Below, piece after piece: positions 15,889 through 36,758 of a stretch of 36,758 nt of DNA. Positions within the stretch are counted from its first letter, which is position 1; every line of letters starts with the position of its first letter. This stretch comes from Pseudomonadota bacterium (GTDB lineage Bacteria > Pseudomonadota > Alphaproteobacteria > Rhizobiales > Beijerinckiaceae). The notes below the pieces were generated by a model, which was not told the DNA's origin, did no database searches, and worked only from the letters and a program-made list of their open reading frames with translations. Both the position numbers and the translations under genes were made by a program. The stretch is taken from contig JAKAJL010000035.1 of assembly GCA_021813805.1 (NCBI GenBank), positions 1 through 36,758 on the forward strand, given 5' to 3'.

Positions 15889-15913
15889 TTCCTGTCTTGT
15901 CTCCAACGACTCT

Positions 15914-15927: not shown

Positions 15928-15956
15928 TCATGATCTTCAAGCGACTCGCGCTATTT

Positions 15957-15972
15957 TTCCACGATACGGGAA
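15957..15972. promoter_or_regulatory. candidate IclR operator 1
   Basis: TTCCACGATACGGGAA is an imperfect inverted repeat (TTCC/GGAA ends). Read on the minus strand it contains TATCGTGGAA, the same ten bases as in the site at 16059-16075. Two related palindromes in inverted orientation about 100 bases apart in the iclR-gcl gap suggest a shared operator. Confidence 0.5.
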
Positions 15973-16058
15973 TTCTTGTGCCCTGTCGCCGGAAATCGCC
16001 GGAAAGCAGCGTGTTGAAAATGCACAACAATTTGTTTTGACGAAATGATTTGCCTGCA

Positions 16059-16075
16059 CTTCCATATCGTGGAAG
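16059..16075. promoter_or_regulatory. candidate IclR operator 2 upstream of gcl
   Basis: CTTCCATATCGTGGAAG is a palindrome with perfect 6-bp arms (CTTCCA, TGGAAG) around TATCG, 66 bases before the gcl start. It shares TATCGTGGAA with the site at 15957-15972. Its position near the expected gcl promoter fits repression or activation of the glycolate operon. Confidence 0.55.
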
Positions 16076-16141
16076 CCATCTCGAAATCTTGCCCAGTCGT
16101 GCGATAGAACATCCACGACCATTTCGTGCCGGGAGAACGCC

Positions 16142-17983: not shown

Positions 17984-18028
17984 TCCGATTCGAAACACGC
18001 CGCCGAGAAAGCTCCAAGGAAAGCCCCG

Positions 18029-18805: not shown

Positions 18806-18843
18806 CCAAGGCGCCAACGCAAACATCTGATCTGGAGACCACC

Positions 18844-19731: not shown

Positions 19732-19756
19732 GCGAACGCGGGGCGGGGGATCGGCG

Positions 19757-21082: not shown

Positions 21083-21154
21083 ACGCAACTTCGGGCAATG
21101 ATCATCTGATGTTCGGGCGCGATTACAAGAAACGCCGCCATATCGGGGGGAAGA

Positions 21155-22777: not shown

Positions 22778-24264
22778 TCAGAATGCCTGAACCCGACTCA
22801 GGCCTGCTCGCGCGGCGCGAGGAAATCGTCGCAGCGCTCGCAAGGATCGTGCCCGGCGAGGGCGTGATCGCCTCCGAGCGCGAGCGCCGCGCCTTCGAAT
22901 GCGACGCCTTGACAGCCTATCATCAGCTCCCGATGGCGGTGGTGCTGCCCGACAACACGCAGCAGATCGTCGAAATCCTGCGCTATTGCAAAGCGAACAG
23001 GATCAAGGTGGTCCCGCGCGGGGCGGGCACCTCGCTTTCCGGCGGTTCGCTGCCGCTCGCCGACGGGATCATTCTCGGGCTTGGAAAGTTCAACCGCATT
23101 CTCGAAATCGACGTCGCCAATCGCTGCGCCGTTGTGCAGCCCGGCGTGACCAATCTTGGCATCACCCACGCCGTCCAGGCGCACGGGCTCTATTACGCGC
23201 CAGACCCGTCGAGCCAGATCGCCTGCAGCATCGGCGGCAATGTCGCGGAGAACGCCGGAGGCGTGCACTGCCTCAAATATGGCCTCACCACCAATAATGT
23301 GATCGGGGTCGAATTCGTCACCATGGACGGCGAAATCATCCGCCTCGGCGGCAAGCATTTCGACGCCGGCGATTACGATCTGCTCGGCGTGATGGTCGGC
23401 TCGGAAGGTCTGCTCGGCGTCGTCACCGAAGTTACGGTGCGGGTGCTTCCCTCGCCCCCCGGCGCGCGCGCGCTTCTCATCGGCTTCCCCTCGATCGAAG
23501 GCGCCGGCGATTGCGTCGCCTCGGTGATCGGTTCGGGGATCATTCCCGGCGGCATGGAGATCATGGACAAGCTGGCGATCGAGGCGGCGGAAGCCTTCGT
23601 CCACGCCAATTATCCGCTCGACGCCGCGGCCCTGCTGATCGTCGAACTCGACGGCTGCGCGGCGGAGGTCGATCATCTGATCGCGGCGGTGGAATCCATC
23701 GCGATGGAGCATGGCGCGACGTCCTGCCGGGCCAGCCGGTCGGAGGAGGAGCGGCTGCTGTTCTGGGCGGGCCGCAAGGCTGCCTTTCCCGCCGTCGGCC
23801 GCATCTCGCCCGATTATTACTGCATGGACGGGACCATTCCGCGCAAGGAAATCGGCCGGGTTCTCTCGCGGCTGAAAGAGATGGAGCGGCGCTATGGCCT
23901 GCGCTGCGCCAATGTCTTCCATGCCGGCGACGGCAATCTCCATCCGCTCATCCTCTACGACGCCAACAAGCCGGGCGAACTGCAGCGCGCGGAAGATTTC
24001 GGCGCCGACATCTTGCGGCTCTGCGTCGAGGTCGGCGGGGTTCTGACCGGCGAACATGGCGTCGGCGTGGAAAAGCGCGATCTGATGGAGGCGATGTTCA
24101 ACGAGACCGATCTCGATCAGCAGCAGCGGTTGAAATGCGCCTTCGACGACGAGAGCTTGCTCAATCCGGGAAAAGTCTTTCCCCAGCTCTGCCGCTGCGC
24201 GGAGCTTGGCCGGATGCATGTCCGCGCGGGGCAGTTGCGCTTTCCCGACCTGCCCCGTTTCTAG
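22774..24264 (+). CDS. glcD: glycolate oxidase subunit GlcD (FAD subunit)
   Basis: A 496-residue FAD protein that oxidises glycolate to glyoxylate in complex with GlcE and GlcF. I place the start at 22774, where ATGA overlaps the permease stop; an ATG three codons on is equally possible. The FAD-binding part has PRGAGTSLSGGSLPLADGI and SIGGNVAENAGGVHCLKYG. The C-terminal part has FHAGDGNLHPLILYD and LTGEHGVGVEKRDLM, typical of GlcD. Length matches E. coli GlcD (499). Translational coupling with the permease is likely. Confidence 0.95.
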   Translation: MIRMPEPDSGLLARREEIVAALARIVPGEGVIASERERRAFECDALTAYHQLPMAVVLPDNTQQIVEILRYCKANRIKVVPRGAGTSLSGGSLPLADGIILGLGKFNRILEIDVANRCAVVQPGVTNLGITHAVQAHGLYYAPDPSSQIACSIGGNVAENAGGVHCLKYGLTTNNVIGVEFVTMDGEIIRLGGKHFDAGDYDLLGVMVGSEGLLGVVTEVTVRVLPSPPGARALLIGFPSIEGAGDCVASVIGSGIIPGGMEIMDKLAIEAAEAFVHANYPLDAAALLIVELDGCAAEVDHLIAAVESIAMEHGATSCRASRSEEERLLFWAGRKAAFPAVGRISPDYYCMDGTIPRKEIGRVLSRLKEMERRYGLRCANVFHAGDGNLHPLILYDANKPGELQRAEDFGADILRLCVEVGGVLTGEHGVGVEKRDLMEAMFNETDLDQQQRLKCAFDDESLLNPGKVFPQLCRCAELGRMHVRAGQLRFPDLPRF

Positions 24265-24275
24265 AGGCGAAAATC

Positions 24276-25496
24276 ATGACCGACTTCCGTCCCTCCGACG
24301 AGAAACAGATCGCCGAAATCGTCGCGGCGGCGGCGGCGCAGAAACAGAGCCTGGAGATCGTCGCCGGCGGCAGCAAGCGCGGCTATGGGCGGCCGGTGAA
24401 GGCCGATCATCTGCTCGATCTGTCGCGGATCGCCGGGATCGTCAATTACGAGGCGGCTGAACTGATCCTGACCGCGCGTCCGGGAACTTCGCTGGCCGCG
24501 GTCAAGGCGGAGCTTGCCGCCAAGGGTCAGATGCTGGCTTTCGAGCCGCCCGGCTGGCAAAGCCTGTTCGAGACCAACGCCGAGCCGACGCTTGGAGGGG
24601 TTCTCGCCTGCAATATCGGCGGACCGCGCCGCGCGCGCGCCGGCGCGCCGCGCGATTTCTTCCTCGGCTTTTCGGCGGTCAACGGAAGGGGCGAGATCTG
24701 GAAGGGCGGCGGCAAGGTGGTGAAAAACGTCACCGGCTTCGACGTCAGCAAATTGCTGGCGGGCTCGTTCGGCACGCTTTCTGTCCTTACCGAAATCACC
24801 CTGAAGGTCATGCCGCGCCCCGAAAGCCAATGCACGATCCTGCTTCCCGCCCTTGCGGATGAGATCGCGGTCGCGACCATGGCCAAGGCCTTGAATACGC
24901 CGTTCGAGGTCTCGGGTGTGGCCCATCTGCCGGCGGAGGCCGCGCGGCGCTCGTCGGTTGCCGCCGTCGCCCAAGGACGCTGCGCGGTCACCGCGCTGCG
25001 GATCGAAGGGCCGGCGCCTTCGGTCGCCTTCCGCGCCGAGGCGCTCGAAGAGCTTTTCGGACGCGGCGAAAGGCTTGACAATGCGGCTTCCACACAATTC
25101 TGGGAGGAAGTCGGCGAGGCTCGATCACTGCTGCCGGATGGCGCTCGCGTGATGTGGCGGCTTTGCCCGACGCCGAGCCGTGCGGCGGTCGCGGCGAGCG
25201 CGATCAAGGCGCGCCTGCCAGCGGCGGAAACCCTTTTCGACTGGGGCGGCGGTCTTGTCTGGCTGAGCCTCGACGCCGCCGAGGCCGGCGCCGACGCCGG
25301 GGCGGCCATTGTGCGCGGCGCGATGAAATCGTGCGGCGGCCACGCCACGTTGATCGTGGCGCCCGCCGCGACGCGTGAAAGGATCGCGGTCTTCGAGCCG
25401 GCGCCCGGCCCGCTCGCGGCTTTGAAGGCGCGGGTGAAAGCCGGCTTCGATCCGCTGGGCGTCTTCAATCCCGGCCGCATGCAAGAGGGCCTCTAG
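24276..25496 (+). CDS. glcE: glycolate oxidase subunit GlcE
   Basis: A 406-residue FAD-binding subunit starting at 24276 (MTDFRPSDEKQIAEIVAAAA). The FAD-binding fold is shown by EIVAGGSKRGYGRP, TLGGVLACNIGGPRRARAGA and KVVKNVTGFDVSKLLAGSFG. The short C-terminal domain ends VKAGFDPLGVFNPGRM, as in the family. It is somewhat longer than E. coli GlcE (350). The start lies 11 bases after glcD and the stop 5 bases before glcF, so all three are co-translated. Confidence 0.94.
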   Translation: MTDFRPSDEKQIAEIVAAAAAQKQSLEIVAGGSKRGYGRPVKADHLLDLSRIAGIVNYEAAELILTARPGTSLAAVKAELAAKGQMLAFEPPGWQSLFETNAEPTLGGVLACNIGGPRRARAGAPRDFFLGFSAVNGRGEIWKGGGKVVKNVTGFDVSKLLAGSFGTLSVLTEITLKVMPRPESQCTILLPALADEIAVATMAKALNTPFEVSGVAHLPAEAARRSSVAAVAQGRCAVTALRIEGPAPSVAFRAEALEELFGRGERLDNAASTQFWEEVGEARSLLPDGARVMWRLCPTPSRAAVAASAIKARLPAAETLFDWGGGLVWLSLDAAEAGADAGAAIVRGAMKSCGGHATLIVAPAATRERIAVFEPAPGPLAALKARVKAGFDPLGVFNPGRMQEGL

Positions 25497-25501
25497 AGAC
25501 C

Positions 25502-26788
25502 ATGCAGACCAATTTCACCCCGGCCCAGCTTGCCGATCCCGCCATCAGGACAGCGGACAAGATCCTGCGCGCCTGCGTCCATTGCGGCTTCTGCACCGCG
25601 ACCTGCCCGACCTTCGTCCTGCGCGGCGACGAACTCGATTCGCCGCGCGGGCGCATTTATCTCATCAAGGACATGCTGGAAAACGATCGCGCGGCCAGCG
25701 CCGAAGAGGTCAAACATATCGACCGCTGCCTGTCCTGCCTGTCCTGCATGACAACCTGTCCGTCGGGCGTCGATTACATGCATTTGGTCGATCACGCCCG
25801 CCACCATATCGAAAGGACTTTTCGCCGGCCCTTGCTCGACCGTGTGATCCGTCGCGCCTTCGGTTTCGTGCTGCCGCGGCCAGCCATTTTCCGCGCCGCC
25901 TTGAATGTGGCGAAACTTGGCAAGCCCTTCGCGGGGCTGCTTCCGGCCAGGCTGCGCGCCCCCTTCGCCATGGCGCCAAGCGCGATCCCCAAGGCCTCGG
26001 TCTGGGATAAGCCGCGGGTGATCTCGCGTCAGCAGCCGAATACGCGGCGCGTCGCGTTGATGACCGGCTGCGCCCAGAAGGTGCTTTCGCCGCAGATCAA
26101 TGAGGCCACGATCCGGCTCCTGACGCGGCATGGCTGCGAAGTGGTGATCGCCGAAGGCGCGGGCTGTTGCGGCGCGCTCAACCATCACCTCGGCCAGGAC
26201 GAGGGCCTGACGTTCGCGCGGAAGAATATTCTCGCCTGGAGCCACGCGATGGCGTCCGGCGGGCTCGACGCCGTCGTCATCAACGCCTCGGGCTGCGGCA
26301 CGACCGTCAAGGATTACGGTTTCATGTTCCGCGACGATCCCGACATCGCCGACAAGGCGGCCGAGATTTCTTCGCTCGCGCGCGACATCACCGAACTGAT
26401 GAGCGAGATCGGGCTCATGGCGCCCGCCAACGCCACCGGGCGGCGAGTCGCCTATCACAGCGCCTGCTCGCTCCAGCACGGCCAGAAGATCCGCAACGAA
26501 CCGAAACAACTGCTGAAGGATGCTGGCTTCACCGTCCTCGACCCGCCCGAAGGCCATCTCTGCTGCGGTTCGGCGGGGACCTACAATCTGCTTCAGCCGG
26601 AGATCGCAAACGAACTGCGCGACCGCAAGGTCGCCAATATCGAAAGCACCCGGCCGGAAATAGTCGCCGCGGGCAACATAGGCTGCATTGCGCAGATCGC
26701 CGGCGGCACGGATCTTCCGGTGGTCCATACGGTCGAACTACTCGACTGGGCGACAGGCGGCCCGCGCCCGCGAAATATCCCGGCGTGA
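25502..26788 (+). CDS. glcF: glycolate oxidase iron-sulfur subunit GlcF
   Basis: A 428-residue protein that takes electrons from GlcDE, presumably on to the quinone pool at the membrane. Two [4Fe-4S] ferredoxin-type motifs are CVHCGFCTATCPTF and CLSCLSCMTTCPSGVDY. Two cysteine-rich CCG domains follow (TGCAQKVLSPQINEAT with GAGCCGAL, and HSACSLQHG with LCCGSAGTYNLL). Length and motif order match GlcF. It is the last gene of the operon and is followed by a strong hairpin. Confidence 0.96.
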   Translation: MQTNFTPAQLADPAIRTADKILRACVHCGFCTATCPTFVLRGDELDSPRGRIYLIKDMLENDRAASAEEVKHIDRCLSCLSCMTTCPSGVDYMHLVDHARHHIERTFRRPLLDRVIRRAFGFVLPRPAIFRAALNVAKLGKPFAGLLPARLRAPFAMAPSAIPKASVWDKPRVISRQQPNTRRVALMTGCAQKVLSPQINEATIRLLTRHGCEVVIAEGAGCCGALNHHLGQDEGLTFARKNILAWSHAMASGGLDAVVINASGCGTTVKDYGFMFRDDPDIADKAAEISSLARDITELMSEIGLMAPANATGRRVAYHSACSLQHGQKIRNEPKQLLKDAGFTVLDPPEGHLCCGSAGTYNLLQPEIANELRDRKVANIESTRPEIVAAGNIGCIAQIAGGTDLPVVHTVELLDWATGGPRPRNIPA

Positions 26789-26833
26789 CATGACTTCCGA
26801 CGGGCGCCTCGGAAGGAGATAGTGAAAAAGCGA

Positions 26834-26889: not shown

Positions 26890-27117
26890 TCAGGCGACGT
26901 GCTTGATCACGAAGCGATAGACGCCGGCGTTGGACGTCGATTCGACCAGTTCATTGCCGGTGGTGCGGCAGAAGGCGGCGAAATCGGCGACCGAGCCAGG
27001 GTCGGTCGCGAGGATTTCCAACGTGCCGCCAGCGGGCACTTCCTTGAGTGTCTTCTTTGCACGCAGAATCGGCAGGGGGCAGTTCAGACCCTTGGCGTCG
27101 AGAGTTTTATCAGCCAT
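26890..27117 (-). CDS. tusA: TusA-family sulfur carrier
   Basis: A 75-residue cytoplasmic sulfur carrier. The motif LDAKGLNCPLPILRAKKTL holds the persulfide-carrying Cys13 in the Cys-Pro-x-Pro signature. The second part (GGTLEILATDPGSVADFAAF) is typical. In sulfur oxidisers TusA passes sulfane sulfur to DsrEFH/DsrC or to the sHdr system. AGAGGAAACG precedes the ATG. It is the last gene of the sqr-dsrE2-tusA operon, and the hairpin at 26834 follows. Confidence 0.95.
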   Translation of the reverse strand: MADKTLDAKGLNCPLPILRAKKTLKEVPAGGTLEILATDPGSVADFAAFCRTTGNELVESTSNAGVYRFVIKHVA

Positions 27118-27154: not shown

Positions 27155-27661
27155 TCAGATGAAGAGATTGATATCGGACTTCAGCGCCCTTTCCATATAG
27201 GTCGCGGCGCCGCCGATTTCGACGCCGTCGATCAGATCGGTCGCCTTGTATTCGAAGAGGTCGAGCGTCATCTGGCAAGCAATGATTTTCACGTCGGACT
27301 CGATCGCAGCTTCGCGCAGATCCTCGATCGAGGCGACGCCCTTGCTCTTGATCAGGTTCTTCATCATGGTGGTCGCGCCGGCGTCGACGCCGGGCAGCAT
27401 GTTGACGATGTTCGGCATGGCCATGTGCATGCCCATCATGGGCATTTTCATGGCGGCGTTGCCGAGCGCCGTCACCTGCAGGTCCAGCTTCTTCTTGAGG
27501 ATTTCAAGACCATAAAAGGTGAAGAACAAGGTAACATCGACGCCCATGGCGGCTGCGGTGGTCGCCAGGATCAGCGGCGGATAGGCCCAGTCGAGCGATC
27601 CCTTCGTGACGATGATCGTCATGGATTTGGCGTTAGCGCCGTCGTCCGTGTTGTTAGTCAT
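27155..27661 (-). CDS. dsrE2: DsrE2-type sulfurtransferase (DsrE/DsrF/DsrH-like)
   Basis: A 168-residue protein of the DsrE2 group. The opening KSMTIIVTKGSLDWAYPPLI leads into an amphipathic, weakly hydrophobic stretch (LATTAAAMGVDVTLFFTFYG). A Met-rich segment follows (KMPMMGMHMAMPNIVNMLPG), then the probable active Cys129 in VKIIACQMTLDLF. DsrE2 proteins are usually encoded with TusA and a rhodanese and are thought to exchange sulfane sulfur with TusA. The tusA gene follows by 37 bases, but I see no rhodanese gene here. A good AGGAAAG ribosome site supports the start. Confidence 0.9.
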   Translation of the reverse strand: MTNNTDDGANAKSMTIIVTKGSLDWAYPPLILATTAAAMGVDVTLFFTFYGLEILKKKLDLQVTALGNAAMKMPMMGMHMAMPNIVNMLPGVDAGATTMMKNLIKSKGVASIEDLREAAIESDVKIIACQMTLDLFEYKATDLIDGVEIGGAATYMERALKSDINLFI

Positions 27662-27713
27662 TTTGCTTTCCTTGGGTCATTGGTGGCGTGCCGGCGAAGC
27701 CGGCGCGCCTGGT

Positions 27714-28997
27714 TCAGTCCGTCGTGACATTCTTGAGCTTGGCGATGCCCATCATGCTGAGGGCGGCGGATTCATAAAACGGCTCGCTTTCACCCTTGCG
27801 CATTTTTCGGATGAAATATTTCTCGAAGCCGATCTTGGCGGCGTGGACCCAGCGGCCATGGCCGGACCAGTTGACATTGCGCGGCGGGATTTGCGGCTGC
27901 GCGACAAAGGCGATGCCGCTGTCGCCGAAATCGGCGAGACAGATCGCGTTCCAGGTGCCGCGATAGATCGGCTGGCGTCCGCGCAGGAGTTCGCCGATGT
28001 TCTTGGCCGCCGCAGTGACCATGGACTCGATCATGAATCCGGTCTTCGGCACGCCGCAGGGAACCGGCGTCGGGCCCATGGGGGGGATGGCGACGCAGAC
28101 GCCGACGGAGAAGATGTTCTTGAATTTGGGATTTTGCTGGTGCTTGTCAACGAGAACGAAGCCGCGCGGATTGACCAGTCCGTCGATGCCGTGAAGCGGC
28201 TTGATGCCCCGGAACGCCGGCAGCATCATGGCCATGCCGAACGGCAGTTCCTTGGTCGCCTTGACCGAACCATCGTCGGCGATCTCTTCAACCGTCATCT
28301 TCCCGGCTTCGACCTTTTTGACCCGCGAGCTGGTCAGCCATTTGATGTGCTTTTCGCGCATCTCGCTTTCGAGCAGGCCCTTGGTGTCGCCGACGCCGTC
28401 GAGGCCGAGATGGCCGACATAGGGTTCGGACGTTACGAAGGTCATCGGCACCTGGTCGCGAATCTTGCGGCGGCGCAGCTCGGTCTCGAGGATGAAGGTG
28501 AATTCATAGGCGGGACCGTAACAGGAGGCGCCCTGCACGGCGCCGGTGATGACCGGACCGGGCTTCTTGCAGAATTCCTCGAAACTGATGGCCGCCTTTT
28601 CGGCGTGGTCGATATGGCAGATCGAGGTGGTGTGGCCCTGCGGCCCCAGGCCCTCGATCTCGTCGAAAGCCAGTTCCGGCCCCGTGGCGATGATCAAATA
28701 ATCATAGGAAATCTTCGAGCCATCCTCGAGCTCGAGGCTGTTGGCCCCGGGATCCATCTTGGCGACGGGGACCGGCTTGAAATTGATGCCGCGCTTGGCG
28801 AAGGTCGGCGCCAGATCGACCTCGATCGATTCGCGGGTGCGCCAACCGACCGGAACCCACGGATTGCTGGGAACGAAATGATAGACCGGATCCTTGGTGA
28901 CGACCGTCAGCCGATCCTCGGGACGCATATGGTCCTTCATTTCATAGGCCATGATGGTGCCGCCCAGACCGGCGCCCATGATGACGATTTCAGCCAT
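27714..28997 (-). CDS. sqr: sulfide:quinone oxidoreductase
   Basis: A 427-residue FAD protein that oxidises sulfide and reduces quinone at the membrane. The start at 28997 (MAEIVIMGAGLGGTIMAYEM) has GGGAGGAGAGC before it. The first FAD site is GAGLGG and the second region is YDYLIIATGPELAFDEIEGL. Three cysteines correspond to the redox/catalytic trio of the Acidithiobacillus ferrooxidans enzyme as I remember it: Cys127 (TSICHIDHAE), Cys159 (GASCYGPAYE) and Cys353 (NAICLADFGD). The C-terminal GRWVHAAKIGFEKYFIRKMRKG is the membrane-binding end of that type. The dsrE2 gene follows by 52 bases. Confidence 0.92.
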   Translation of the reverse strand: MAEIVIMGAGLGGTIMAYEMKDHMRPEDRLTVVTKDPVYHFVPSNPWVPVGWRTRESIEVDLAPTFAKRGINFKPVPVAKMDPGANSLELEDGSKISYDYLIIATGPELAFDEIEGLGPQGHTTSICHIDHAEKAAISFEEFCKKPGPVITGAVQGASCYGPAYEFTFILETELRRRKIRDQVPMTFVTSEPYVGHLGLDGVGDTKGLLESEMREKHIKWLTSSRVKKVEAGKMTVEEIADDGSVKATKELPFGMAMMLPAFRGIKPLHGIDGLVNPRGFVLVDKHQQNPKFKNIFSVGVCVAIPPMGPTPVPCGVPKTGFMIESMVTAAAKNIGELLRGRQPIYRGTWNAICLADFGDSGIAFVAQPQIPPRNVNWSGHGRWVHAAKIGFEKYFIRKMRKGESEPFYESAALSMMGIAKLKNVTTD

Positions 28998-29054
28998 GCT
29001 CTCCTCCCACATTGCAGGCGTTAGGACAACTCGCCCATCTTTGTCGGATCAGAT

Positions 29055-29069
29055 TATTCGTATTTGTTG
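29055..29069. promoter_or_regulatory. candidate sulfur-regulon motif upstream of sqr
   Basis: TATTCGTATTTGTTG lies about 58 bases before the sqr start and matches TATTCGCATTTTCTG (36016-36030, tauD-dsrA gap) at 12 of 15 positions. ArsR-type sulfide sensors (SqrR/BigR) bind AT-rich ATTC-containing sites, so this is a candidate. In a GC-rich genome it could simply be promoter sequence. Confidence 0.3.
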
Positions 29070-29134
29070 GATTGTCGAGCGGAATCCGCGCGGGGCGTCA
29101 GACCTTTTTCGTAGAAGCCGCGCGGCGGCGATGT

Positions 29135-31150
29135 TTAGTAGCGGGAGTCGAAAGGCTTATCCCCCTTCGGCCAGTCGTTAACCTTGGCGGGGAAATCGGA
29201 CCTCGGCTGATGGGTGAAGAATTCCGCGACGTCGAGCGCGTCCTGGTCCGATAATCCGCCCTGATCCTGCGGGAAATTGACCTGATGCGCGACCGGCATG
29301 TTGGCTTTGACGAAGCCGCCCGCCGTGAACGTGCGGGCCATGCCCGCGCCGATGTTGAAAGAATGGTCGCCCCACAGCGGCGGGAAAACCCAGTCGCCGG
29401 CCGCGCTTTTCATTCCTTCGCCGTTCTTGCCGTGGCAGACGGCGCATTTGTCGGCATAGACTTTCTGGCCATGCGCGGGGTCCGGCTTCATCGCATGATC
29501 CAGCTTGGGCAGGCCGCGGCCGATGATCTTGCCGTCCGGCCCCTTCTCGCCCTTCAGCCAGGCCATATAGGCGATCATCGCTTTCATTTCCGGCGAATCC
29601 GGAGGCAAAGGCGCGCCATTCATCGAGCGTTGGAAGCAGCCGTTCAAACGGTCCTCGATCGTGATTACACGGCCGGCGCGTTTGTTATAGACCGGGAACA
29701 GTGTGACGACGCCGAAATAGGGCGAGGCTTTGGCGATCGTGCCGCCATCAAGATGGCAGGAATTGCAGTCCAGCGCGTCACCGACATTGTTCGGCAGCAG
29801 CCTGTGGGTTTGCGCCATCAGGCGCAGGCCCTGGATCAACTGGACCGAATTGGGGTCGTTCAGCAGGTCGGCGAGGCGCGGCGTCAGGATCGTCCTCGGC
29901 TCGGGCGCCGGCAGGGCGAGTTCGGCGCGCATCGCCTTCACCTGACCCGCGGTGACCGCGCTTGCCTTGTTGCCCCAGGAAGTGCGGGCGAAGGTCAGGA
30001 TTTCCGCGAGCTCCTCATCGGTCAGGCGAGCAAAGCCGGGCATTTTGAACCGATGCGTGCTGGCTCTGGTCGAAGCGGTCGTTCCGCCGGCGAGGACGAT
30101 ATGGAGGACCGAGGCGGGATTGTCCGAGAGGAAGGCGCGATTGCCGGCAAGGGCAGGAAAAATGTTGGGCGCGCCAAGCCCGCTGCGCTGGTGGCAGGAG
30201 GCGCAGAACTGCTCGTAGCCAAGGCCGCCGCGGGTTCCGTAAAGCGCCTTTTCGTCGCCGGCCTCGATCACCGGCGGCCGGGTTCCGGCGGGCGCTAGCG
30301 AGACCAGGTAACGGGCCATCGCGCGCAGATCGTCGTCGGTGAAATATTGGGTGCTGTAGTGAATGACCTCGGTCATCGGACCAAACGCCATCGAATGTCT
30401 CGCGGCGCCGGTCTTCAGCAGTTGGACCAGGGCGTCCTCGGAGGTGAGATTGCGCAGGCCGATGGCGCGCCACGGGCCGATGGTCGAACCCGCGAGATAA
30501 GCGGAACTGTTGCTGCTGTAGGCCTTTTCCTGCAACGCCAGGCCGCGTGGCGTGTGGCAGGCTCCGCAATGTCCGAGCCCTTCGACGATATAGGCGCCGC
30601 GGTTCCATTGCGCGTCCCTGGCGGGATCGGGCGCGAAGGGCTTGTCGTCGAGGAACAGCAGGTTCCAGAACAACATGCTCGCCCTTATGTTGTACGGAAA
30701 ACGCATCTCCGCCGGCTTGTTGGTCTGTTCGACCGGCGCCACGCCCTTCATGAAGAAAGCATAGAGCGCCTCGACATCCTCGTCCGTCACCTTGGCGAAG
30801 GAGGGATAAGGCATCGCGGGATAAAGATGGCGGCCGTCGGCGGCGACGCCGCGCCGCAGCGCCCGGCTGAACTGGTCGAGAGTATAGGAGCCGATGCCGG
30901 TCTTGGGGTCGGGGGTGATATTGGTCGAATAGACGGTTCCGCCCGGCGTCTTGAAGGCGAGCCCGCCCGCCATCGGCTTGCCGCCCTCGACGGTGTGGCA
31001 GGCGGCGCAGTCGCCCAGACGCGCGAGATAGGCGCCGCGCGCGACCACGCCGTCGTCGCCAGCCGCAGCGGCCCACGCTGGGGCGCCGGAAATACCGAGC
31101 CCGACAAGAACCGCCGCGGCGAGACGCGCGCGCGCACCTTTTTCAAGCAT
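29135..31150 (-). CDS. pentahaem cytochrome c: trihaem AdhB-like part fused to TsdA-like thiosulfate dehydrogenase
   Basis: A 671-residue exported protein with a signal peptide (about 1-28, ending AWA). Five haem c sites are visible: CAACH 48-52, CGACH 195-199, CASCH 316-320, CNSCH 462-466 and CAVCH 569-573. Residues 30-400 have the layout of the triple cytochrome subunit of alcohol/gluconate dehydrogenases. Residues 420-671 resemble the dihaem thiosulfate dehydrogenase TsdA. They include SPYFGVVTLFPVYNKRAGRV and RLNGCFQRSMNG, where Cys505 is the likely counterpart of the cysteine that ligates the active-site haem in TsdA. Natural TsdB-TsdA fusions are known, but with a dihaem TsdB. It probably oxidises thiosulfate or a related sulfur compound in the periplasm. 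Confidence 0.85.
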   Translation of the reverse strand: MLEKGARARLAAAVLVGLGISGAPAWAAAAGDDGVVARGAYLARLGDCAACHTVEGGKPMAGGLAFKTPGGTVYSTNITPDPKTGIGSYTLDQFSRALRRGVAADGRHLYPAMPYPSFAKVTDEDVEALYAFFMKGVAPVEQTNKPAEMRFPYNIRASMLFWNLLFLDDKPFAPDPARDAQWNRGAYIVEGLGHCGACHTPRGLALQEKAYSSNSSAYLAGSTIGPWRAIGLRNLTSEDALVQLLKTGAARHSMAFGPMTEVIHYSTQYFTDDDLRAMARYLVSLAPAGTRPPVIEAGDEKALYGTRGGLGYEQFCASCHQRSGLGAPNIFPALAGNRAFLSDNPASVLHIVLAGGTTASTRASTHRFKMPGFARLTDEELAEILTFARTSWGNKASAVTAGQVKAMRAELALPAPEPRTILTPRLADLLNDPNSVQLIQGLRLMAQTHRLLPNNVGDALDCNSCHLDGGTIAKASPYFGVVTLFPVYNKRAGRVITIEDRLNGCFQRSMNGAPLPPDSPEMKAMIAYMAWLKGEKGPDGKIIGRGLPKLDHAMKPDPAHGQKVYADKCAVCHGKNGEGMKSAAGDWVFPPLWGDHSFNIGAGMARTFTAGGFVKANMPVAHQVNFPQDQGGLSDQDALDVAEFFTHQPRSDFPAKVNDWPKGDKPFDSRY

Positions 31151-31223
31151 TTTCCCCTCTCTTCGCGCACCCCTCGGCGGCGCGTCGTTCGTCGTTTGGC
31201 TCCGGCGCGCCGGCGCGGAAAAG

Positions 31224-31748
31224 TCAGGCGGAACGGCGTTCCAGCCAGAAGAAGAACGCCAGGCTGGCCGCGGCGAGACCCAACAGCCAGACGAGGTCCG
31301 GAACGCCCGTCAGTTGCGGCAACCGGACTTTTCCCAGGGCCCAGACATTGAGGATATGCGCCTTGATCCAGTTGAAACTGAATGCGTAAGCGATCGCGCC
31401 GGCGATCATCCCGAAGACGGCGGACAGAGCGTGCAGGCTGCCGGTGGCGGTCGCCGCCAGGGCGGTGCCCGGACAATAGCCGAGGATCGCCACCGCCAGG
31501 CCGAATATCGCGCCGCCGAGGATCACGGCGAGCACATTGGCGTCCTTGATGTAATAGAGCGTCTCGCCGAAACGCGCGAGAACGAGGACTCCTAGCCCGC
31601 CGACGACGATGGCGGGAAGCAGCATCTTCACCATGGTGAAGTCACGCAAACAGAATTGGCCCTCGATGACATTGCTGTCCGTCACCCGCGCGCGATGGAG
31701 CAGGAAGCCGAAAGCGAATCCGACGGCCAGTGCGAGCAGGATAGTCAT
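31224..31748 (-). CDS. YeeE/YedE half-transporter (second of pair)
   Basis: A 174-residue membrane protein with about four to five hydrophobic segments. The motif LGYCPGTALAATATGS is the conserved cysteine-containing signature of the YeeE/YedE (TsuA/PmpAB) family. Members import thiosulfate or move sulfur compounds across the inner membrane. Full-length TsuA-type proteins are about 350 residues with two such halves; here each half is its own gene. Its ATG overlaps the stop of the upstream half by 4 bases, so the two are made together. The ending FFFWLERRSA is cytoplasmic by charge. Confidence 0.9.
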   Translation of the reverse strand: MTILLALAVGFAFGFLLHRARVTDSNVIEGQFCLRDFTMVKMLLPAIVVGGLGVLVLARFGETLYYIKDANVLAVILGGAIFGLAVAILGYCPGTALAATATGSLHALSAVFGMIAGAIAYAFSFNWIKAHILNVWALGKVRLPQLTGVPDLVWLLGLAAASLAFFFWLERRSA

Positions 31749-32302
31749 GACGCCGCCTTCCGTCCGAAGATGATCCGCGAACTGATGATGGCGCTGATGA
31801 AAACGACGATGACGAAAATCCAGCTCGACAGAGCCAGCTGCAGGGTTCCCGACAGGCCATGGCCGCTGGTGCAGCCGCCGGCCATGCGCGCGCCGAACAT
31901 CAGCAGCGCGCCCGCGACAAAGGCGGCGACGAAGCGTTTGATGAGCGAGCCGCCAAAGCGCGCCCGCCAGAAATGCGGCACGGCTTCAAGCCGGAAGGTC
32001 CCCGACGCCAGCGAGGAAACCAGAGCGCCGGCCATCAGGCCGACCAGGAACAACATGCTGTAATCCCAGGAAAACGGCATGGGGGCCCAATAGGGATTAT
32101 GCGCGGCGGCTTGCGCGCCGAACATCAGCGCCGCGATCGGCTGGCCGACTCGCGACAAAGCCGTGGTGACGCCGATCGGCTCTCTCGCCACGGCGAAGGC
32201 GATCCAGCTAAGAACACCAAGCGCCGCGCCGATGAGATAGGGCGAACGATCAACCTTTCGCCTCTCCGCGCGTTGCGAAAGGCGATCCGTCCAAATGGTC
32301 AT
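31745..32302 (-). CDS. YeeE/YedE half-transporter (first of pair)
   Basis: A 185-residue membrane protein with GGGGAGGACC before its ATG. After a basic N terminus (TDRLSQRAERRKVDRSP) come about five hydrophobic segments. The family signature is ARMAGGCTSGHGLSG with its central Cys. It pairs with the overlapping downstream half (31224-31748). The encoded pair resembles PmpA/PmpB of biofilm-associated sulfide-detoxification operons. The gene follows the solute-binding protein gene by 39 bases, which suggests that the binding protein may feed it. Confidence 0.9.
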   Translation of the reverse strand: MTIWTDRLSQRAERRKVDRSPYLIGAALGVLSWIAFAVAREPIGVTTALSRVGQPIAALMFGAQAAAHNPYWAPMPFSWDYSMLFLVGLMAGALVSSLASGTFRLEAVPHFWRARFGGSLIKRFVAAFVAGALLMFGARMAGGCTSGHGLSGTLQLALSSWIFVIVVFISAIISSRIIFGRKAAS

Positions 32303-32341
32303 GGCGGTCCTCCCCTGTATCAGGCGCCCATCTTATGGCCG

Positions 32342-33334
32342 TCAGTTGGCGGCGCCCCTGTATGGCTTGAAGCCATATTTCTCGAAAATCGCCAGAGACT
32401 GCGGCGATTGCATGAATTCGAGCCACATTTTGGCCGCCTCCGGATGGGGCGCGCCTTTCACCACAGCGCCGCCATAGATCGCGGTCGTGTTCTGCGACTC
32501 GGGAATATCGACGTGGGCGATTCCGTGGCCCGCCTTCTCCTGGAAAATCGCCTCTGATTGCCAGGTGACTCCGGCCTGGGCCTTGCCCTGCATCAGATAG
32601 AGCGGCGACTGGCGATGATGGATATGGGTCAGGATGGTTTCGCCATTGGCGACCTTGGTTTCGTAAACCGCCTTGACCAGCGCGTCGCCGCCGGCCTTGG
32701 CGAGCGAGGCCTTGATCTGGCGGGCGATGCCCTCATAGGCGGGATTGGGCATGACGAGCTTGACGCCGGGCTTGCCCAGATCGGCGAGGCTCGCGATATG
32801 GGCCGGATTGCCCTTGGGGACCATGATCGTCAGCGTGTTGGTGGCATAAGGGACGCCCGGCGCGTCCAGCATGCCCTCGTCGATATATTGCGTGATTTTC
32901 TTGAAACCGGCGAAATAGACGTCCGGCTTCACCGTCCAGGTCATATTGCCGACGGTGATGGTTCCGCCCGCCTTGATCTGCTGCGCCAGGAGGCCCGGTG
33001 GAATCGTCTCCCAATAGATGCGCCCCGCGAATTCCGGATGCAGTTCTTCAAATGTGGCGACCAGTTCGGCGGTGGCGAAAAAATAATTGCCGCCGAAGAA
33101 CAGGGCCAGTTTCGGATCCTGCGGCGAGCCATGGAAATCCGCGAGATTGTCGGCGTCCGGCTCGGTGAAGTCGAGGCCGCGCTGGCTCACCGGGACGTCG
33201 TCATTGGCGCCGCCCTGCCACGGCGGGGCGAAATCGGGACGCAGTTTCGCGCTCTCCGCCCGCGCGCCTGAGGAGGCGCCAGCGAGCAGGAGCGCCGCAA
33301 CGGCAAACAGGGCGGCCCCCGAAAGAATTTTCAT
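32342..33334 (-). CDS. periplasmic solute-binding protein (type 2, ModA/sulfate-binding-like)
   Basis: A 330-residue exported protein with a signal peptide (MKILSGAALFAVAALLLAGA, ending ARA). The fold is that of type 2 periplasmic binding proteins. ALFFGGNYFFATAELVATFEE opens the first lobe, and NTLTIMVPKGNPAHIASLADL with PNPAYEGIARQI is at the hinge region, as in ModA-like proteins. The ligand is not deducible; an oxyanion such as thiosulfate or sulfite fits the context. No ABC permease or ATPase gene lies nearby. It sits 11 bases after the secreted DsrE-like gene and before the YeeE/YedE pair. Confidence 0.82.
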   Translation of the reverse strand: MKILSGAALFAVAALLLAGASSGARAESAKLRPDFAPPWQGGANDDVPVSQRGLDFTEPDADNLADFHGSPQDPKLALFFGGNYFFATAELVATFEELHPEFAGRIYWETIPPGLLAQQIKAGGTITVGNMTWTVKPDVYFAGFKKITQYIDEGMLDAPGVPYATNTLTIMVPKGNPAHIASLADLGKPGVKLVMPNPAYEGIARQIKASLAKAGGDALVKAVYETKVANGETILTHIHHRQSPLYLMQGKAQAGVTWQSEAIFQEKAGHGIAHVDIPESQNTTAIYGGAVVKGAPHPEAAKMWLEFMQSPQSLAIFEKYGFKPYRGAAN

Positions 33335-33345
33335 TTTCCCGTTCC

Positions 33346-34128
33346 TTATTTCACGTAGGAGAAGCCGGCCGCCGCCAGTTCGGGCAAGGTGCCGACGATG
33401 CCGGGCGTCAGGACGCAGCCGGGAATGATGTGGTTGGTCAGTTCAGCCGCCATGGCCTCGTGCGACAGCTTGTCGGGATTGACGCCGGCCTTGATCAGCT
33501 TCTCCGAAACTTCCCACATCGTGTTGTGGCAGGCGAGAAACACCACGCCGCGGCGCATCAGCGCCGGGATCGAGACGTTGTGCGAGGAATACACGCCGTC
33601 GCTCTGCTGGAAATCCTTGGGATCGGCGGAAGCGCCGGGCTGTTCGGCGATGAATGTGTTTTTCGCGAATTTGTCGCCGGTCAGCTTGGCGAGCTGATAT
33701 TTGTCCCACATCGCCTGATCGAGCAGAGCGAGATGGGCGACGCCATGGGTGGCCGAGACAAGAAAAAAGTTGGGATGCCGAAAACTGAACACCTGGGTGT
33801 TGAGCGCATTGCGCATGCCGTTGAGCCAGGGGCTCGCGATGTCGGTGTTGTCCCAGACCTGCCGCGGCGAACCGCGATAGGCGAGAATGGCGTCGAGCGC
33901 CTCGTGATCCCAATCGTTCCTGTCGGCGAGAATCATCGGGACGGTCTTGAAATCGCGGCGGCGCGGGGCCTTTTCGAGCATGGCGGCAAGCTCCGTTAGC
34001 GTGCCGGAACCCTCGGGAAGGACCATCTTTGGCGCCTCCGCCCTCGCGCCTTCGCTGGCGAGACTGGCGGCGAGGCCAAAGCCCATCGCCAAGATGGCGT
34101 CCCTGCGTCCGATAACACGGTCAGTCAT
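33346..34128 (-). CDS. secreted DsrE-like protein with twin-arginine-like signal
   Basis: A 260-residue protein with GGGAGGAATC before the ATG. The N terminus (MTDRVIGRRDAILAMGFGLA, then ASLASEGARA) has paired arginines and a cleavable hydrophobic segment, a weak Tat-type signal. The C-terminal part (GVVFLACHNTMWEVSEKLI, then AAELTNHIIPGCVLTPGIVG) resembles the DsrE/DsrF fold, with Cys200 in the position where DsrE proteins carry their active cysteine. Cys238 is the other visible cysteine. An exported sulfurtransferase or sulfur-binding protein is inferred. It is the first gene of a run with the solute-binding protein and the YeeE/YedE pair. Confidence 0.7.
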   Translation of the reverse strand: MTDRVIGRRDAILAMGFGLAASLASEGARAEAPKMVLPEGSGTLTELAAMLEKAPRRRDFKTVPMILADRNDWDHEALDAILAYRGSPRQVWDNTDIASPWLNGMRNALNTQVFSFRHPNFFLVSATHGVAHLALLDQAMWDKYQLAKLTGDKFAKNTFIAEQPGASADPKDFQQSDGVYSSHNVSIPALMRRGVVFLACHNTMWEVSEKLIKAGVNPDKLSHEAMAAELTNHIIPGCVLTPGIVGTLPELAAAGFSYVK

Positions 34129-34496
34129 GATTCCTCCCGTTGAGATTCGTGTCTGGATATTGGCCTTCGAGGCTTCGCCCTTCGATCTCCGTTCGAACGT
34201 CCTCGCCGCCAGACCGCGCCGGCTCTCGCGCCCGCGGGGCGCTAAATATCATCACATTCGCATATTTTCATTCGTTTAGCCGATGTCAAGACGACAAGCG
34301 CAAAGCCGAATCCGCCTCCGCTTCCTTGCGGACGCTTGGCCGCCTTGATCACCGCTGGCACGGCAAGCCGTCAAAAATGTCGGCCAGCGAGCCCGCGGTC
34401 TCGCGGCGGCCAGTTCTTCGACCCGCCGTTGCGCTTCTCAAGCCGCCGATGACGAGCCCATGGCATGACTGGCGGCCAGCCGTTGCAATGGAACGG
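34129..34496. other. 368-base gap with promoter for the secreted DsrE-like gene
   Basis: No gene is convincing here; plus-strand frames have high Arg/Ser/Pro content and no family likeness. The part nearest 34128 should hold the promoter of the minus-strand operon. An AT-rich island at about 34242-34280 stands out in the GC-rich surroundings and contains the motif listed at 34256-34274. The right-hand half (34290-34496) contains only weak GC inverted repeats. Confidence 0.5.
34256..34274. promoter_or_regulatory. candidate sulfur-regulon motif upstream of the secreted DsrE-like operon
   Basis: ATTCGCATATTTTCATTCG matches ATTCTCATATTCGCATTTT (36009-36027) at 15 of 19 positions. Both lie in AT-rich spots in front of sulfur genes. 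It could be an ArsR-family (SqrR/BigR-like) operator or a shared promoter element. No regulator gene of that type is in the window. Confidence 0.35.
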
Positions 34497-34715
34497 TCAT
34501 TTTCGGCCCTTTTGTCCCGCCGCCCAGTCGAGCATCATCTGTCCCCACTTTTCCGCGGTTTCATCGTCGATCTCGAGAATCGTGTAGCGCGCGCCCTCGC
34601 GGATCGTGAGGCGCAGCAGGGCCATGCCGCTTCCATAGTCGATTTCGTCGAGCTTGATCCGACGGCGATAGGGCGCCTCGATCTCGCCGATCTCCCTTTT
34701 CGGCGCCGTCGTCAT
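34497..34715 (-). CDS. small acidic/basic protein of unknown function
   Basis: A 72-residue soluble protein from the ATG at 34715 (MTTAPKREIGEIEAPYRRRI), which overlaps the stop of the upstream small gene by 4 bases (ATGA). The sequence EIEAPYRRRIKLDEIDYGSG followed by LLRLTIREGARYTILEIDDETA suggests a small beta-rich domain with a C-terminal helix. It has no cysteine and no signal. I do not recognise a function. Its place between the dioxygenase/dsrA region and the sulfur-transport genes suggests a role in sulfur metabolism. A 5' extension to 34766 is unlikely because it would overlap the neighbour. Confidence 0.7.
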   Translation of the reverse strand: MTTAPKREIGEIEAPYRRRIKLDEIDYGSGMALLRLTIREGARYTILEIDDETAEKWGQMMLDWAAGQKGRK

Positions 34716-34912
34716 CGGCGGGGGCTCTCGGCAGCGTAGAAAGCTTGCTCCAGCCTGAGCTCCCATTTGTTGGGCGTGTCAGGGTATTCCGGCTTGATGT
34801 CCATATAGAGATGGATTTCGCCGTCGCGCGCGGCCTCGACAACCTTCTGTTCAAGCTCGGTGAAACTGGTCATTTCTGGATGGGAGATAATGATTTCGCT
34901 GATTCGCGCCAT
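34712..34912 (-). CDS. small protein of unknown function, coupled to the next gene
   Basis: A 66-residue soluble protein with AGGAGGAAGCC before its ATG. MARISEIIISHPEMTSFTEL is followed by a helical stretch and IHLYMDIKPEYPDTPNKWELRL. It has no cysteine, signal or membrane segment. The 4-base overlap with the following gene indicates that the two products are made in equal amounts and may form a complex. Function unknown. The gene is on the minus strand between the TauD-like dioxygenase and the secreted DsrE-like gene. Confidence 0.7.
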   Translation of the reverse strand: MARISEIIISHPEMTSFTELEQKVVEAARDGEIHLYMDIKPEYPDTPNKWELRLEQAFYAAESPRR

Positions 34913-34921
34913 GGCTTCCTC

Positions 34922-34990
34922 CTAGAGCACAATCCCAAAAAGCCGCAGACTTTTTGGATAGGATTATGCGTTAAAAAACAAAATGTTATG
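34922..34990. repeat. palindromic intergenic repeat of Rhizobiales type
   Basis: Between the dioxygenase gene and the small genes lies TAGAGCACAATCC, then CCAAAAAG (34934-34941), a 7-base loop, CTTTTTGG (34949-34956), ATAGGATTATGCGTTAAA and an A-rich end. This architecture (AGAGCA-, a hairpin, a second GATTATGC-like arm, TTAAAA) matches the abundant short palindromic repeats scattered through Rhizobiales genomes. It could also act as a terminator for the dioxygenase gene. Confidence 0.6.
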
Positions 34991-35025
34991 GCGATATCTC
35001 CGATTCAACGTGAACGGACTTCCCT

Positions 35026-35991
35026 TTAGTTCCGGTTGATTCGGTTGTTGAACCTGATTCGGCACAGGCTCCGATGGCTGTCGCCATGATCTTCGAAGGC
35101 CGAACGGTCATGCAGGACATTATTGCACAAAAGTCCTTGCCCCGGTGCAAGTTTGAGCCGCCGCGTCAGCGGCTCCGCCTCGATCAGGGCGAGCAGTTTG
35201 TCGGCCGCCGCGCGGGTTTCCGCGTCGCGCCAGACGACATTTCTCTTCCGCGCGGTGTATCGCATGACGAGTGCGCCGGCGTCGTCGAGGAAAAAGACCG
35301 GTCCGGCGTTGGCGGCGCGAAAACGCCCGGAATCATCGGTCGCCTCGGGAATGGTCATCGCCTCGGGATGAATCAGCAGGCGAAGCGCCGACTCGTCCGC
35401 GTCCCGCAAACGAAGATAGGCCAGTTCGTGATCCAGGAGGCGATTCTCTCCGCCATCCGACGCGGCGGCCGCGCAATGGAGAATCATGCCGCGCACGCAA
35501 TTGTCCGGGCCATGATAGTTGTAATAGCCATCGGTGTGCCAGGCGATTCGCAGAGTGGTGTAAGGGATATAGCCAACGCGTCCGCCGCCATGCGCGACTT
35601 CGATCCGAACCACGCCATTGTCGTTCGCCGACCGGTGGTCTTCGCGCGCGTGCAAGCCGAAGGTCCCGGTGAAGGCCAGAAGCCATTGGTCGAGAGCATT
35701 GGCGTCAGACGGGGCGCTGCGCCATTCATAAAGCGCGTAATTGGTCGCGGCCACCTGGTCCAGAAGCGCTGCGCGCTCGGAATCGGAGATCTCGCGAGGG
35801 TCCTCGATGGGGGTCGGCGCGAAGGCCATGGCCGACTCAGCCCGAAAAAGCTTGACTTGTCGCCAGCGGCGCCAAGAATTCCCGTCTCCAAGGGAGAAAA
35901 CCGCTGGACTCCAGGCGCTCCGTCTCGCCTCTGCTCCCGCGTAAGCGTCTGATTCAATGCTTTTTTCATCCCACATTGGAAAATTTGCCAT
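35026..35991 (-). CDS. TauD/TfdA-type Fe(II)/2-oxoglutarate dioxygenase
   Basis: A 321-residue cytoplasmic protein. The iron-binding facial triad is visible as His152 and Asp154 (IAWHTDGYYNYH) and His294 (NVLHDRSAF). MRYTARKRNVVWRD near 245 may supply the arginine that binds the co-substrate. It resembles gamma-butyrobetaine hydroxylase/TauD-type enzymes. The family hydroxylates small acids, including sulfonates such as taurine to release sulfite. Its place divergent from dsrA hints at a sulfur substrate, but this is inference. No clear ribosome site is seen at 35991, so the start could be downstream (35976 or about 35829). Confidence 0.8.
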   Translation of the reverse strand: MANFPMWDEKSIESDAYAGAEARRSAWSPAVFSLGDGNSWRRWRQVKLFRAESAMAFAPTPIEDPREISDSERAALLDQVAATNYALYEWRSAPSDANALDQWLLAFTGTFGLHAREDHRSANDNGVVRIEVAHGGGRVGYIPYTTLRIAWHTDGYYNYHGPDNCVRGMILHCAAAASDGGENRLLDHELAYLRLRDADESALRLLIHPEAMTIPEATDDSGRFRAANAGPVFFLDDAGALVMRYTARKRNVVWRDAETRAAADKLLALIEAEPLTRRLKLAPGQGLLCNNVLHDRSAFEDHGDSHRSLCRIRFNNRINRN

Positions 35992-36008
35992 TTTGTTGCA
36001 GACAACCT

Positions 36009-36030
36009 ATTCTCATATTCGCATTTTCTG
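36009..36030. promoter_or_regulatory. candidate sulfur-regulon motif in the tauD-dsrA gap
   Basis: ATTCTCATATTCGCATTTTC lies 18 bases before the dioxygenase start and about 113 before dsrA. It resembles the motif at 34256-34274 (15 of 19) and the one at 29055-29069 (12 of 15, over the shared part). A shared operator for divergent sulfur genes is plausible but not shown. Confidence 0.35.
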
Positions 36031-36139
36031 TTATGATCGCAAGAACTAATGAAAACGAGCGGCCAAATTGGGCAAGCCCGGTTTGGCCACCTGTTAAATA
36101 ACCGTGACGGCGAAATTCGCCGATCCAGGGAGGTATGTA

Positions 36140-36758
36140 ATGTCGCAAGACGATTCCATTCGCACGGAAGGCAAGGGCGCGCCCGCGTCAATTCACCCCA
36201 CGCCGATGCTGGACCAGCTCGAGAGCGGGCCGTGGCCGAGCTTTGTCACGGGTTTGAAGCGTCTGCGCGACAACGCCGACGCGACTTATGCGCCGATGAT
36301 GAACGACCTTCTCGGTCAGCTCGAGCATTCCTATGAAGAGCGGATGGGCTTCTGGAAGGGCGGCACGATCTCGGTCGTCGGCTACGGCGGCGGCGTCATT
36401 CCCCGCTTCTCGGAAGTGGGCTCCAAGTACCCGGCCTCCAAGGAGTTCCACACCCTCCGTATCCAGCCGCCGGCCGGCATGCATTACGACACCGACGTGC
36501 TGCGCCAGATGTGCGACGTGTGGGAGAAATATGGTTCGGGCCTGATCGCTTTCCATGGCCAGTCCGGCGACATCATGTTCCAGGGCTGCTCGAGCGAGAA
36601 CGTCCAGCCGGCCTTCGACGAGCTGAACGAGATGGGCTTCGACCTCGGCGGCGCCGGCCCGGCGCTGCGCACCTCGATGTCCTGCGTCGGCCATGCGCGC
36701 TGCGAAATGTCCTGCTATGACGAGGTCAAGGCGCATCGCGAGGTGATCAACGAATTCC
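36140..36758 (+). CDS. dsrA: dissimilatory sulfite reductase alpha subunit, 5' part only
   Basis: The frame is open from ATG at 36140 (GGGAGG upstream) to the right edge, giving 206 of the usual 400 or so residues. The DsrA N terminus is clear: ESGPWPSFVTGLKRL, LEHSYEERMGFWKGGTISVV and GYGGGVIPRFSEVG. SGLIAFHGQSGDIMFQGCSS follows. The siroheme/[4Fe-4S] motif SMSCVGHARCEMSCYDE begins near residue 181. The enzyme interconverts sulfite and sulfide-level sulfur in the cytoplasm. Adjacent sqr, tusA and dsrE2 point to the oxidative (reverse) type used by sulfur oxidisers. Later parts, including the second cysteine motif and ferredoxin domain, are outside the window. Confidence 0.95.
   Translation, partial: MSQDDSIRTEGKGAPASIHPTPMLDQLESGPWPSFVTGLKRLRDNADATYAPMMNDLLGQLEHSYEERMGFWKGGTISVVGYGGGVIPRFSEVGSKYPASKEFHTLRIQPPAGMHYDTDVLRQMCDVWEKYGSGLIAFHGQSGDIMFQGCSSENVQPAFDELNEMGFDLGGAGPALRTSMSCVGHARCEMSCYDEVKAHREVINEF

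Follow-up and report, generated by a model that had tools for sequence, protein, structure and literature searches.

The closest described counterpart of the genes considered here is the tsd-sbp-doxDA cluster of Acidithiobacillus ferrooxidans, in which AFE_0042 to AFE_0044 are neighbours (PMC6335251). AFE_0042 was reported there as a thiosulfate dehydrogenase (TSD) in its own right; the purified enzyme reduced neither ubiquinone nor horse cytochrome c, which makes a dedicated partner plausible, and its mechanism was described in 2019 as still in need of clarification (PMC6335251). The other two genes encode a solute-binding protein (SBP) and DoxDA, a thiosulfate:quinone oxidoreductase, and the log2 ratios for sulfur versus iron were given as 1.5 for tsd (at the threshold of that paper), 2.2 for sbp and 2.3 for doxDA, positive values meaning higher expression on sulfur (PMC2754497). 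For the cytochrome TsdA, the reported product is tetrathionate (PMC4175335). We analysed a stretch of 36,758 nucleotides (contig JAKAJL010000035.1 of a Beijerinckiaceae genome; the window below means this whole stretch), in which a TSD–SBP gene pair opens a run of eight minus-strand genes, from 34128 down to 26890, that continues with a split YeeE/YedE channel (YA and YB), a multiheme cytochrome, an SQR-like oxidoreductase and the sulfur carriers DsrE2 and TusA (Table 1).

As in A. ferrooxidans, a predicted Tat-exported TSD is followed by a periplasmic binding protein and then by a thiosulfate-oxidising partner, whereas DoxDA is missing from this place and the split YeeE, an AdhB-TsdA fusion, the SQR-like protein, DsrE2 and TusA come next. 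The gaps from TSD to TusA are 11, 39, −4, 73, 122, 52 and 37 bases, none of them above 122, and because they are this small, the run is likely a single operon. An original prediction, made from the DNA letters, had announced a new sulfur capture module of four genes followed by a cytochrome; all of these were found at their expected place and in the expected order on the minus strand. The word new did not survive, since the DsrE-like protein belongs to the characterised AFE_0042 family and tsd-sbp with doxDA had already been described in Acidithiobacillus (PMC6335251, PMC2754497). Most of the other parts are also known singly. What is new is the placement of TSD in the DsrE superfamily, the mutual exclusion of DoxDA and TsdA-type cytochromes beside TSD–SBP, and an operon close to dsr in which DsrE2 and TusA are joined with an AdhB-TsdA fusion and a split YeeE.

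We propose, with a probability of slightly under one half (about 0.47), that the run is an operon for Sox-independent thiosulfate oxidation and sulfur uptake that feeds reverse Dsr, its chemistry, ligand and transport all being predicted. Exported TSD and SBP would handle thiosulfate in the periplasm, where TSD, whose family is established and whose activity here is predicted, may bind thiosulfate at Cys200 in the form of a Cys-S-thiosulfonate, with tetrathionate as the product set free. Electrons would leave through the five-heme AdhB-TsdA cytochrome to quinone, in place of the DoxDA of Acidithiobacillus-type clusters. The split YeeE pair would import thiosulfate or sulfane sulfur, and TusA and DsrE2 would receive the sulfur in the cytoplasm and hand it on in the direction of Dsr; for SBP, the most likely role is to present a sulfur anion or to dock TSD. 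The reading is supported by the frequency of the TSD–SBP pair, the exclusion between DoxDA and the cytochromes, the presence of DsrE2 and TusA in the run, and the dsr genes of the genomes that share the block. A paper of 2024 called it poorly understood how sulfur oxidisers import sulfur into the cytoplasm (PMC11582611), and a run near dsr that unites TusA and DsrE2 with a split YeeE channel and with thiosulfate enzymes of the periplasm bears on this question.

TSD matches the curated NCBIfam equivalog for thiosulfate dehydrogenase, NF052225, over its full length (residues 8-260 on profile positions 1-259), and by this profile match it is a member of the heme-free thiosulfate dehydrogenase family of the AFE_0042 type. 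The copy in Acidithiobacillus ferruginosus (L097) is 54% identical to it. In an alignment of 88 rows, the twin arginine is present as R8 in 85 and R9 in 87 of them, and Cys200-His201 is kept in all 88, Cys200 being the sole invariant cysteine. TSD is rare, occurring in 6 of 60 relatives and in 6 of 398 genomes of the phylum (the window's own genome counted in both).

The exported DsrE-type fold that had been predicted for this protein was supported by profile and fold comparison, although a Pfam scan gave no match to DsrE (PF02635) up to an E-value of 10 and returned two chance-level matches to other families. A PDB sequence search likewise found no DsrE relative; its sole matches were repeats in a BURRH protein, which we took as chance. 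When the TSD profile was compared by hhalign with a 28-row family of PF02635-type proteins, most of which look secreted, a one-pair comparison, the probability was 96.4 and the E-value 1.1e-9, and TSD Cys200 was aligned with a cysteine present in 28 of 28 rows. This family consisted of the seed L138 (PF02635, 46.6 bits) and 27 of 29 fetched relatives, two having been removed by a filter; hhalign gave no useful match against three profiles of only 1 to 3 rows (DsrE, YchN-like, L138 alone). The L138-type family itself, with signal-peptide-like starts, was matched in 25 of 200 genomes of the phylum.

An AlphaFold (AF2) model of TSD built from the 88 rows had a mean pLDDT of 90.6 and was used instead of an earlier, poor model from 7 rows (pLDDT 36.3). 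The best Foldseek matches were 2pd2 and 1l1s (probability 1.00 each), both of which we take to have the DsrE fold, and the designed cage 8uja. In addition, 3pnx (putative sulfurtransferase DsrE) was found at 0.82 and 3mc3 (DsrE/DsrF-like) at 0.18, among low-probability unrelated folds. The TM-score was 0.62 by target but 0.29 by query, with an rmsd of 7-8 Å and a best E-value of 1.6e-3, none being 0.001 or lower. Taken together, the profile comparison and the AlphaFold model support the placement of TSD in the DsrE superfamily. Among the titles and abstract starts of a literature search that mainly covered journals open without subscription, none joined heme-free TSD with this superfamily.

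For the chemistry that we propose there is a documented precedent of the DsrE type, as DsrE3A of Metallosphaera cuprina bears a Cys-S-thiosulfonate (PMC4175335). DsrE3A shares with TSD the superfamily and the proposed thiosulfonate on a cysteine; it differs in that its partner is TusA, so that it is cytoplasmic, whereas TSD is predicted to be exported. The same precedent, together with the single invariant cysteine of a DsrE superfamily protein and the match of the C-terminal part of the cytochrome to the SoxA/TsdA domain family, would also suit a TSD that is no dehydrogenase in this lineage and instead carries sulfur in the periplasm, being loaded by TsdA as SoxYZ is by SoxAX. We consider this improbable, given that AFE_0042 was reported to act as thiosulfate dehydrogenase on its own (PMC6335251) and that TSD exceeds the family cut-off of NF052225. 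An extended version, in which TsdA would oxidatively couple thiosulfate to Cys200 of a secreted DsrE-type carrier, the loaded TSD would, with the aid of SBP, give sulfane sulfur to the split YeeE, and TusA and DsrE2 would feed reverse Dsr without SoxB, appears to us just as improbable. If it were true, a single TSD–SBP carrier pair would have two alternative devices for loading and electron exit, the DoxDA form and the TsdA form.

The surroundings of TSD were compared in the best 80 of 255 confirmed relatives from a pattern search of genome contigs; the rates are therefore not population rates, and several contigs end inside the 5.5-6 kb examined per locus. In 55 of the 80 loci the gene immediately downstream of TSD was SBP, while in 2 more the contig end was reached first. 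The pairing of TSD with a lone binding protein is recurrent and more than chance. Downstream of the pair, DoxDA was present in 19 loci, a TsdA/AdhB-type cytochrome in 24, neither in 12 and both in none; among the 25 loci where SBP did not follow, DoxDA was downstream in 3 and a cytochrome in 3. After TSDs at least 90% identical had been merged, 18 of 47 groups had DoxDA and 17 the cytochrome, again with no overlap, for which the chance is 1.9e-5 (without correction for relatedness); merging at 80% identity gave two groups with both kinds of partner. On a quick maximum-likelihood tree of TSD, with 25 of 81 inner branches open, the partner label needed 8 changes. DoxDA and TsdA-type cytochromes, which are unrelated thiosulfate oxidisers, thus exclude each other beside TSD–SBP. 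As to the labels, L012 was entered as having none despite a same-strand cytochrome match, and L055 was counted as cytochrome by its AdhB part alone, as its contig ends. The tree includes L057, L075 and L079, where TsdA is upstream, and L042, L043, L046, L078, L083 and L084, which have no SBP; three contigs carry two locus numbers each (L013 and L021, L015 and L020, L016 and L092).

In the phylum sample, SBP accompanied TSD in four of the six TSD genomes (that of the window, G000, and G026, G377 and G062), and none lay within 1.5 kb in G340 and G388; among four TSD loci of this sample, added to those above, L104 had SBP and DoxDA, L102 SBP, and L103 and L105 neither within 1.5 kb. Three statements about TSD can be tested: that it has its place in the DsrE superfamily and a single invariant cysteine, that it usually goes with a binding protein, and that beside this pair DoxDA and TsdA-type cytochromes are mutually exclusive. 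We also noticed that the SBP-less loci L031, L033, L041 and L048 have a common neighbour, cluster c20, a molybdopterin-binding protein, and that clusters c28, c30 or c35 from the same neighbourhood occur in L060 and L077 as well.

SBP belongs to PF13531 and is 55-82% identical to its 52 relatives. Being of the sulfate/molybdate-binding class, it might be taken for a thiosulfate or tetrathionate receptor of an unlinked assimilatory importer of the ATP-binding cassette (ABC) type, with TSD as an accessory, yet several results make this very unlikely. The scores against the curated models were 38.2 of 62.5 bits for modA and 33.6 of 155.5 bits for sulfate, neither cut-off being reached, and solved sulfate-binding proteins matched SBP weakly in sequence (E 5e-11 to 7e-6). 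Glu201, His239, His240 and Trp258 are invariant in 53 of 53 proteins; the pocket positions Ser130, Ala173 and Trp192 of Sbp align on Glu201, His240 and Trp258. With an invariant glutamate and histidine at the first two positions, it is doubtful that SBP has the usual kind of sulfate site. In open reading frames of at least 70 amino acids, an ABC ATPase motif was found within 6 kb in only 2 of the 55 TSD–SBP loci and in none of the window, and a Pfam scan of ten open reading frames in 27155-36757 gave no ABC family match besides the binding protein. Nothing in the sequence points to an ABC importer at the locus, in keeping with the predicted absence of ABC neighbours, and the binding of molybdate or sulfate for an ABC system, considered as a candidate role of SBP, was dropped as unsupported by the model scores and the motif search.

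The cytochrome had been predicted to be TsdBA-like. This proved right for its C-terminal part, which aligns with solved TsdA (4wqc, 4v2k); a plain TsdBA it is not, since this part is fused to a triheme cytochrome matching the cytochrome c subunit of quinone-linked alcohol dehydrogenase, and the fusion stands beside a heme-free TSD. There are five CxxCH motifs, those of the TsdA part being CNSCH and CAVCH. The cysteine of NGCFQRS in the TsdA part, presumably the heme ligand of TsdA, is present in all 30 aligned rows (L039, a duplicate, and the contig-cut L055 left out). The fused form also adjoins TSD in L014, L020, L021, L042, L053 and L095; in L035 and L037 the AdhB and TsdA parts are separate neighbouring genes, and the remaining loci have a plain TsdA-type cytochrome. 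Methylorubrum thiocyanatum DSM 11490 (L029) is one of the organisms with TSD, SBP and TsdA.

The prediction of a split YeeE/YedE pair was confirmed, as the two halves, whose reading frames overlap by 4 bases, match the N- and C-terminal parts of PF04143 and of TsuA. The nearest described proteins are PmpA and PmpB, short halves of about 130 residues each that match parts of TsuA; SoxT1A is presented as a sulfur importer in the same report (PMC11582611). Like these halves, YA and YB correspond to the C- and N-terminal parts of TsuA, and equivalents of Cys91 and Cys293 of TsuA, the cysteines named for PmpA and PmpB, are present. They differ in being longer than about 130 residues with four helices each (YA 185 and YB 174 amino acids, with four and five hydrophobic stretches in a hydropathy scan), in the further GQFC cysteine of YB and in their setting in a putative thiosulfate operon. 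YeeE-type channels are also known from YeeE-TusA-DsrEFH clusters (PMC13293266). The locus shares with such clusters the combination of a YeeE-type channel, TusA and a DsrE-type carrier; here, however, YeeE is split, DsrE2 stands in place of the type II DsrEFH, and periplasmic thiosulfate enzymes lie in the same run.

The block TSD–SBP–YA–YB–cytochrome is linked elsewhere, as had been expected, in three genomes (G006, G010 and G026), all of one family with the window's. The SQR-like gene, DsrE2 and TusA follow the cytochrome again in G006, and the contig of G010 stops behind the cytochrome. As a unit, the four-gene block of the original prediction stood in part: the TSD–SBP pair is recurrent, and the YeeE pair is not a constant part, being found beside TSD–SBP in only these four genomes among the examined loci. 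A constant association of the YeeE pair with TSD was accordingly rejected. Within the order, the YA profile matched 29 of 297 genomes at an E-value of 1e-15 (the window's own counted), and six of six YA loci fetched elsewhere had a YB partner, their neighbours having been read by eye only.

Co-occurrence with Dsr, which the original prediction had named as a check, was supported, as dsr genes occur in four of the four block genomes. In these, dsrA was over the cut-off in G000, G006 and G026, and G010 has a dsrA start at a contig edge and a dsrB-type match. In G006, G010 and the window, dsrA starts divergently at a distance of about 2-3 kb from TSD; the window's copy scored under the whole-protein cut-off of TIGR02064 because it is cut by the contig end. 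In the set of 60 relatives, dsrA exceeded the cut-off in 12 (the window's genome counted), and there was no dsrA match in G009 and G023, which have TSD without the YeeE pair. DsrE and DsrF lie near dsrB in G006 and G000, which fits a Dsr of the predicted oxidative type. When SoxB was searched in six genomes, it was over the cut-off in G000 and G009 and not in G006, G010, G026 and G023, so that three of the four block genomes gave no SoxB, G010 being 93% complete. Several dsrA copies were observed: three equal-score matches in G006 (C1), and in G000 one full copy and two partial ones of 184 positions each (C14, C49, C54).

A number of points weigh against an operon that oxidises thiosulfate and feeds Dsr. 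With both TSD and TsdA, a single operon would encode thiosulfate dehydrogenase twice over. The 25 TSD loci without SBP directly downstream include only 2 cut by a contig end, no TSD or SBP was nearby in the six YA–YB pairs fetched elsewhere, and the pmpAB genes of Hyphomicrobium denitrificans are described as unresponsive to thiosulfate (PMC11582611). The archaeal thiosulfate:quinone oxidoreductase has been called cytoplasmically oriented (PMC4175335); if this is true of bacterial DoxDA, it is a misfit with a direct electron path from periplasmic TSD. G026 has no DsrE2, TusA or SQR-like gene in the 18 kb fetched, and its dsrA sits on a contig other than that of the block. The window's own genome has SoxB, and the compared genomes are related and partly incomplete.

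Some of these points would agree better with two neighbouring units, in which TSD, SBP and AdhB-TsdA form a plain tetrathionate-forming respiratory unit that delivers electrons to quinone, and sulfur import belongs to a second unit, made up of the YeeE pair with DsrE2 and TusA, that happens to lie beside it. The YeeE pair does exist without TSD, G026 keeps the five-gene block without DsrE2 and TusA in the 18 kb fetched, and 41 of the 43 TSD–SBP loci with DoxDA or a cytochrome have no YA. We nevertheless think this division rather unlikely, because the genes lie on one strand with small gaps and in an order kept in four genomes, YA–YB are located between SBP and the cytochrome and not at an end, and in L025 (3524-6753), from another lineage, DsrE2–TusA again adjoin TSD–SBP, which they directly precede.

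Table 1. Genes of the predicted operon and the neighbouring dsrA, with positions in the window
Feature	Position	Strand	Assignment	Support
TSD	33346..34128	-	Predicted exported (twin-arginine) protein of the heme-free thiosulfate dehydrogenase family, placed in the DsrE superfamily; Cys200 invariant	NF052225 383.8 bits, cut-off 300
SBP	32342..33334	-	Periplasmic solute-binding protein, frequent TSD partner, no ABC genes beside it	PF13531 179 bits
YA	31745..32302	-	C-terminal half of YeeE/YedE channel, PmpA-like, GGCTSGHG cysteine	PF04143 positions 178-309; TsuA residues 234-332
YB	31224..31748	-	N-terminal half of YeeE/YedE channel, PmpB-like, GQFC and GYCPGT cysteines	PF04143 positions 4-149; TsuA residues 4-127
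AdhB-TsdA fusion	29135..31150	-	Triheme quinone-dehydrogenase-type cytochrome (residues 10-409) and diheme TsdA (418-659)	8gy2_B, E 1.6e-103; 4wqc_A, E 6.1e-54
SQR-like	27714..29012	-	FAD oxidoreductase	PF07992; NF049943 type III SQR 109 bits, below cut-off 525
DsrE2	27155..27661	-	Sulfur carrier	NF047629 222.5 bits, cut-off 210
TusA	26890..27117	-	Sulfur carrier, 75 aa	PF01206 81.6 bits, cut-off 28.6
dsrA	36104..36757	+	Cut by contig end, divergent from operon	TIGR02064 264.8 bits, profile positions 1-184

Between TSD and dsrA, two further minus-strand genes encode a TauD-family dioxygenase (35026-35991) and a small DUF6967 protein (34497-34766); in L014 and L015, too, both are found on the side of TSD. 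Beyond TusA, the region 15700-26800 of the window contains a photorespiration-type set, of which glyoxylate carboligase (16142-17983) and an LctP-family lactate/glycolate permease (21155-22777) scored above their cut-offs. A glycerate 2-kinase-like protein (19637-21082) remained under its cut-off, and the glycolate oxidase subunits near 22453-26788 are putative, from a reading of the open reading frames. Additionally, a conjugal transfer relaxase TraA was found at 2943-5996 (1787 bits), and a mobile element may lie near the contig start.

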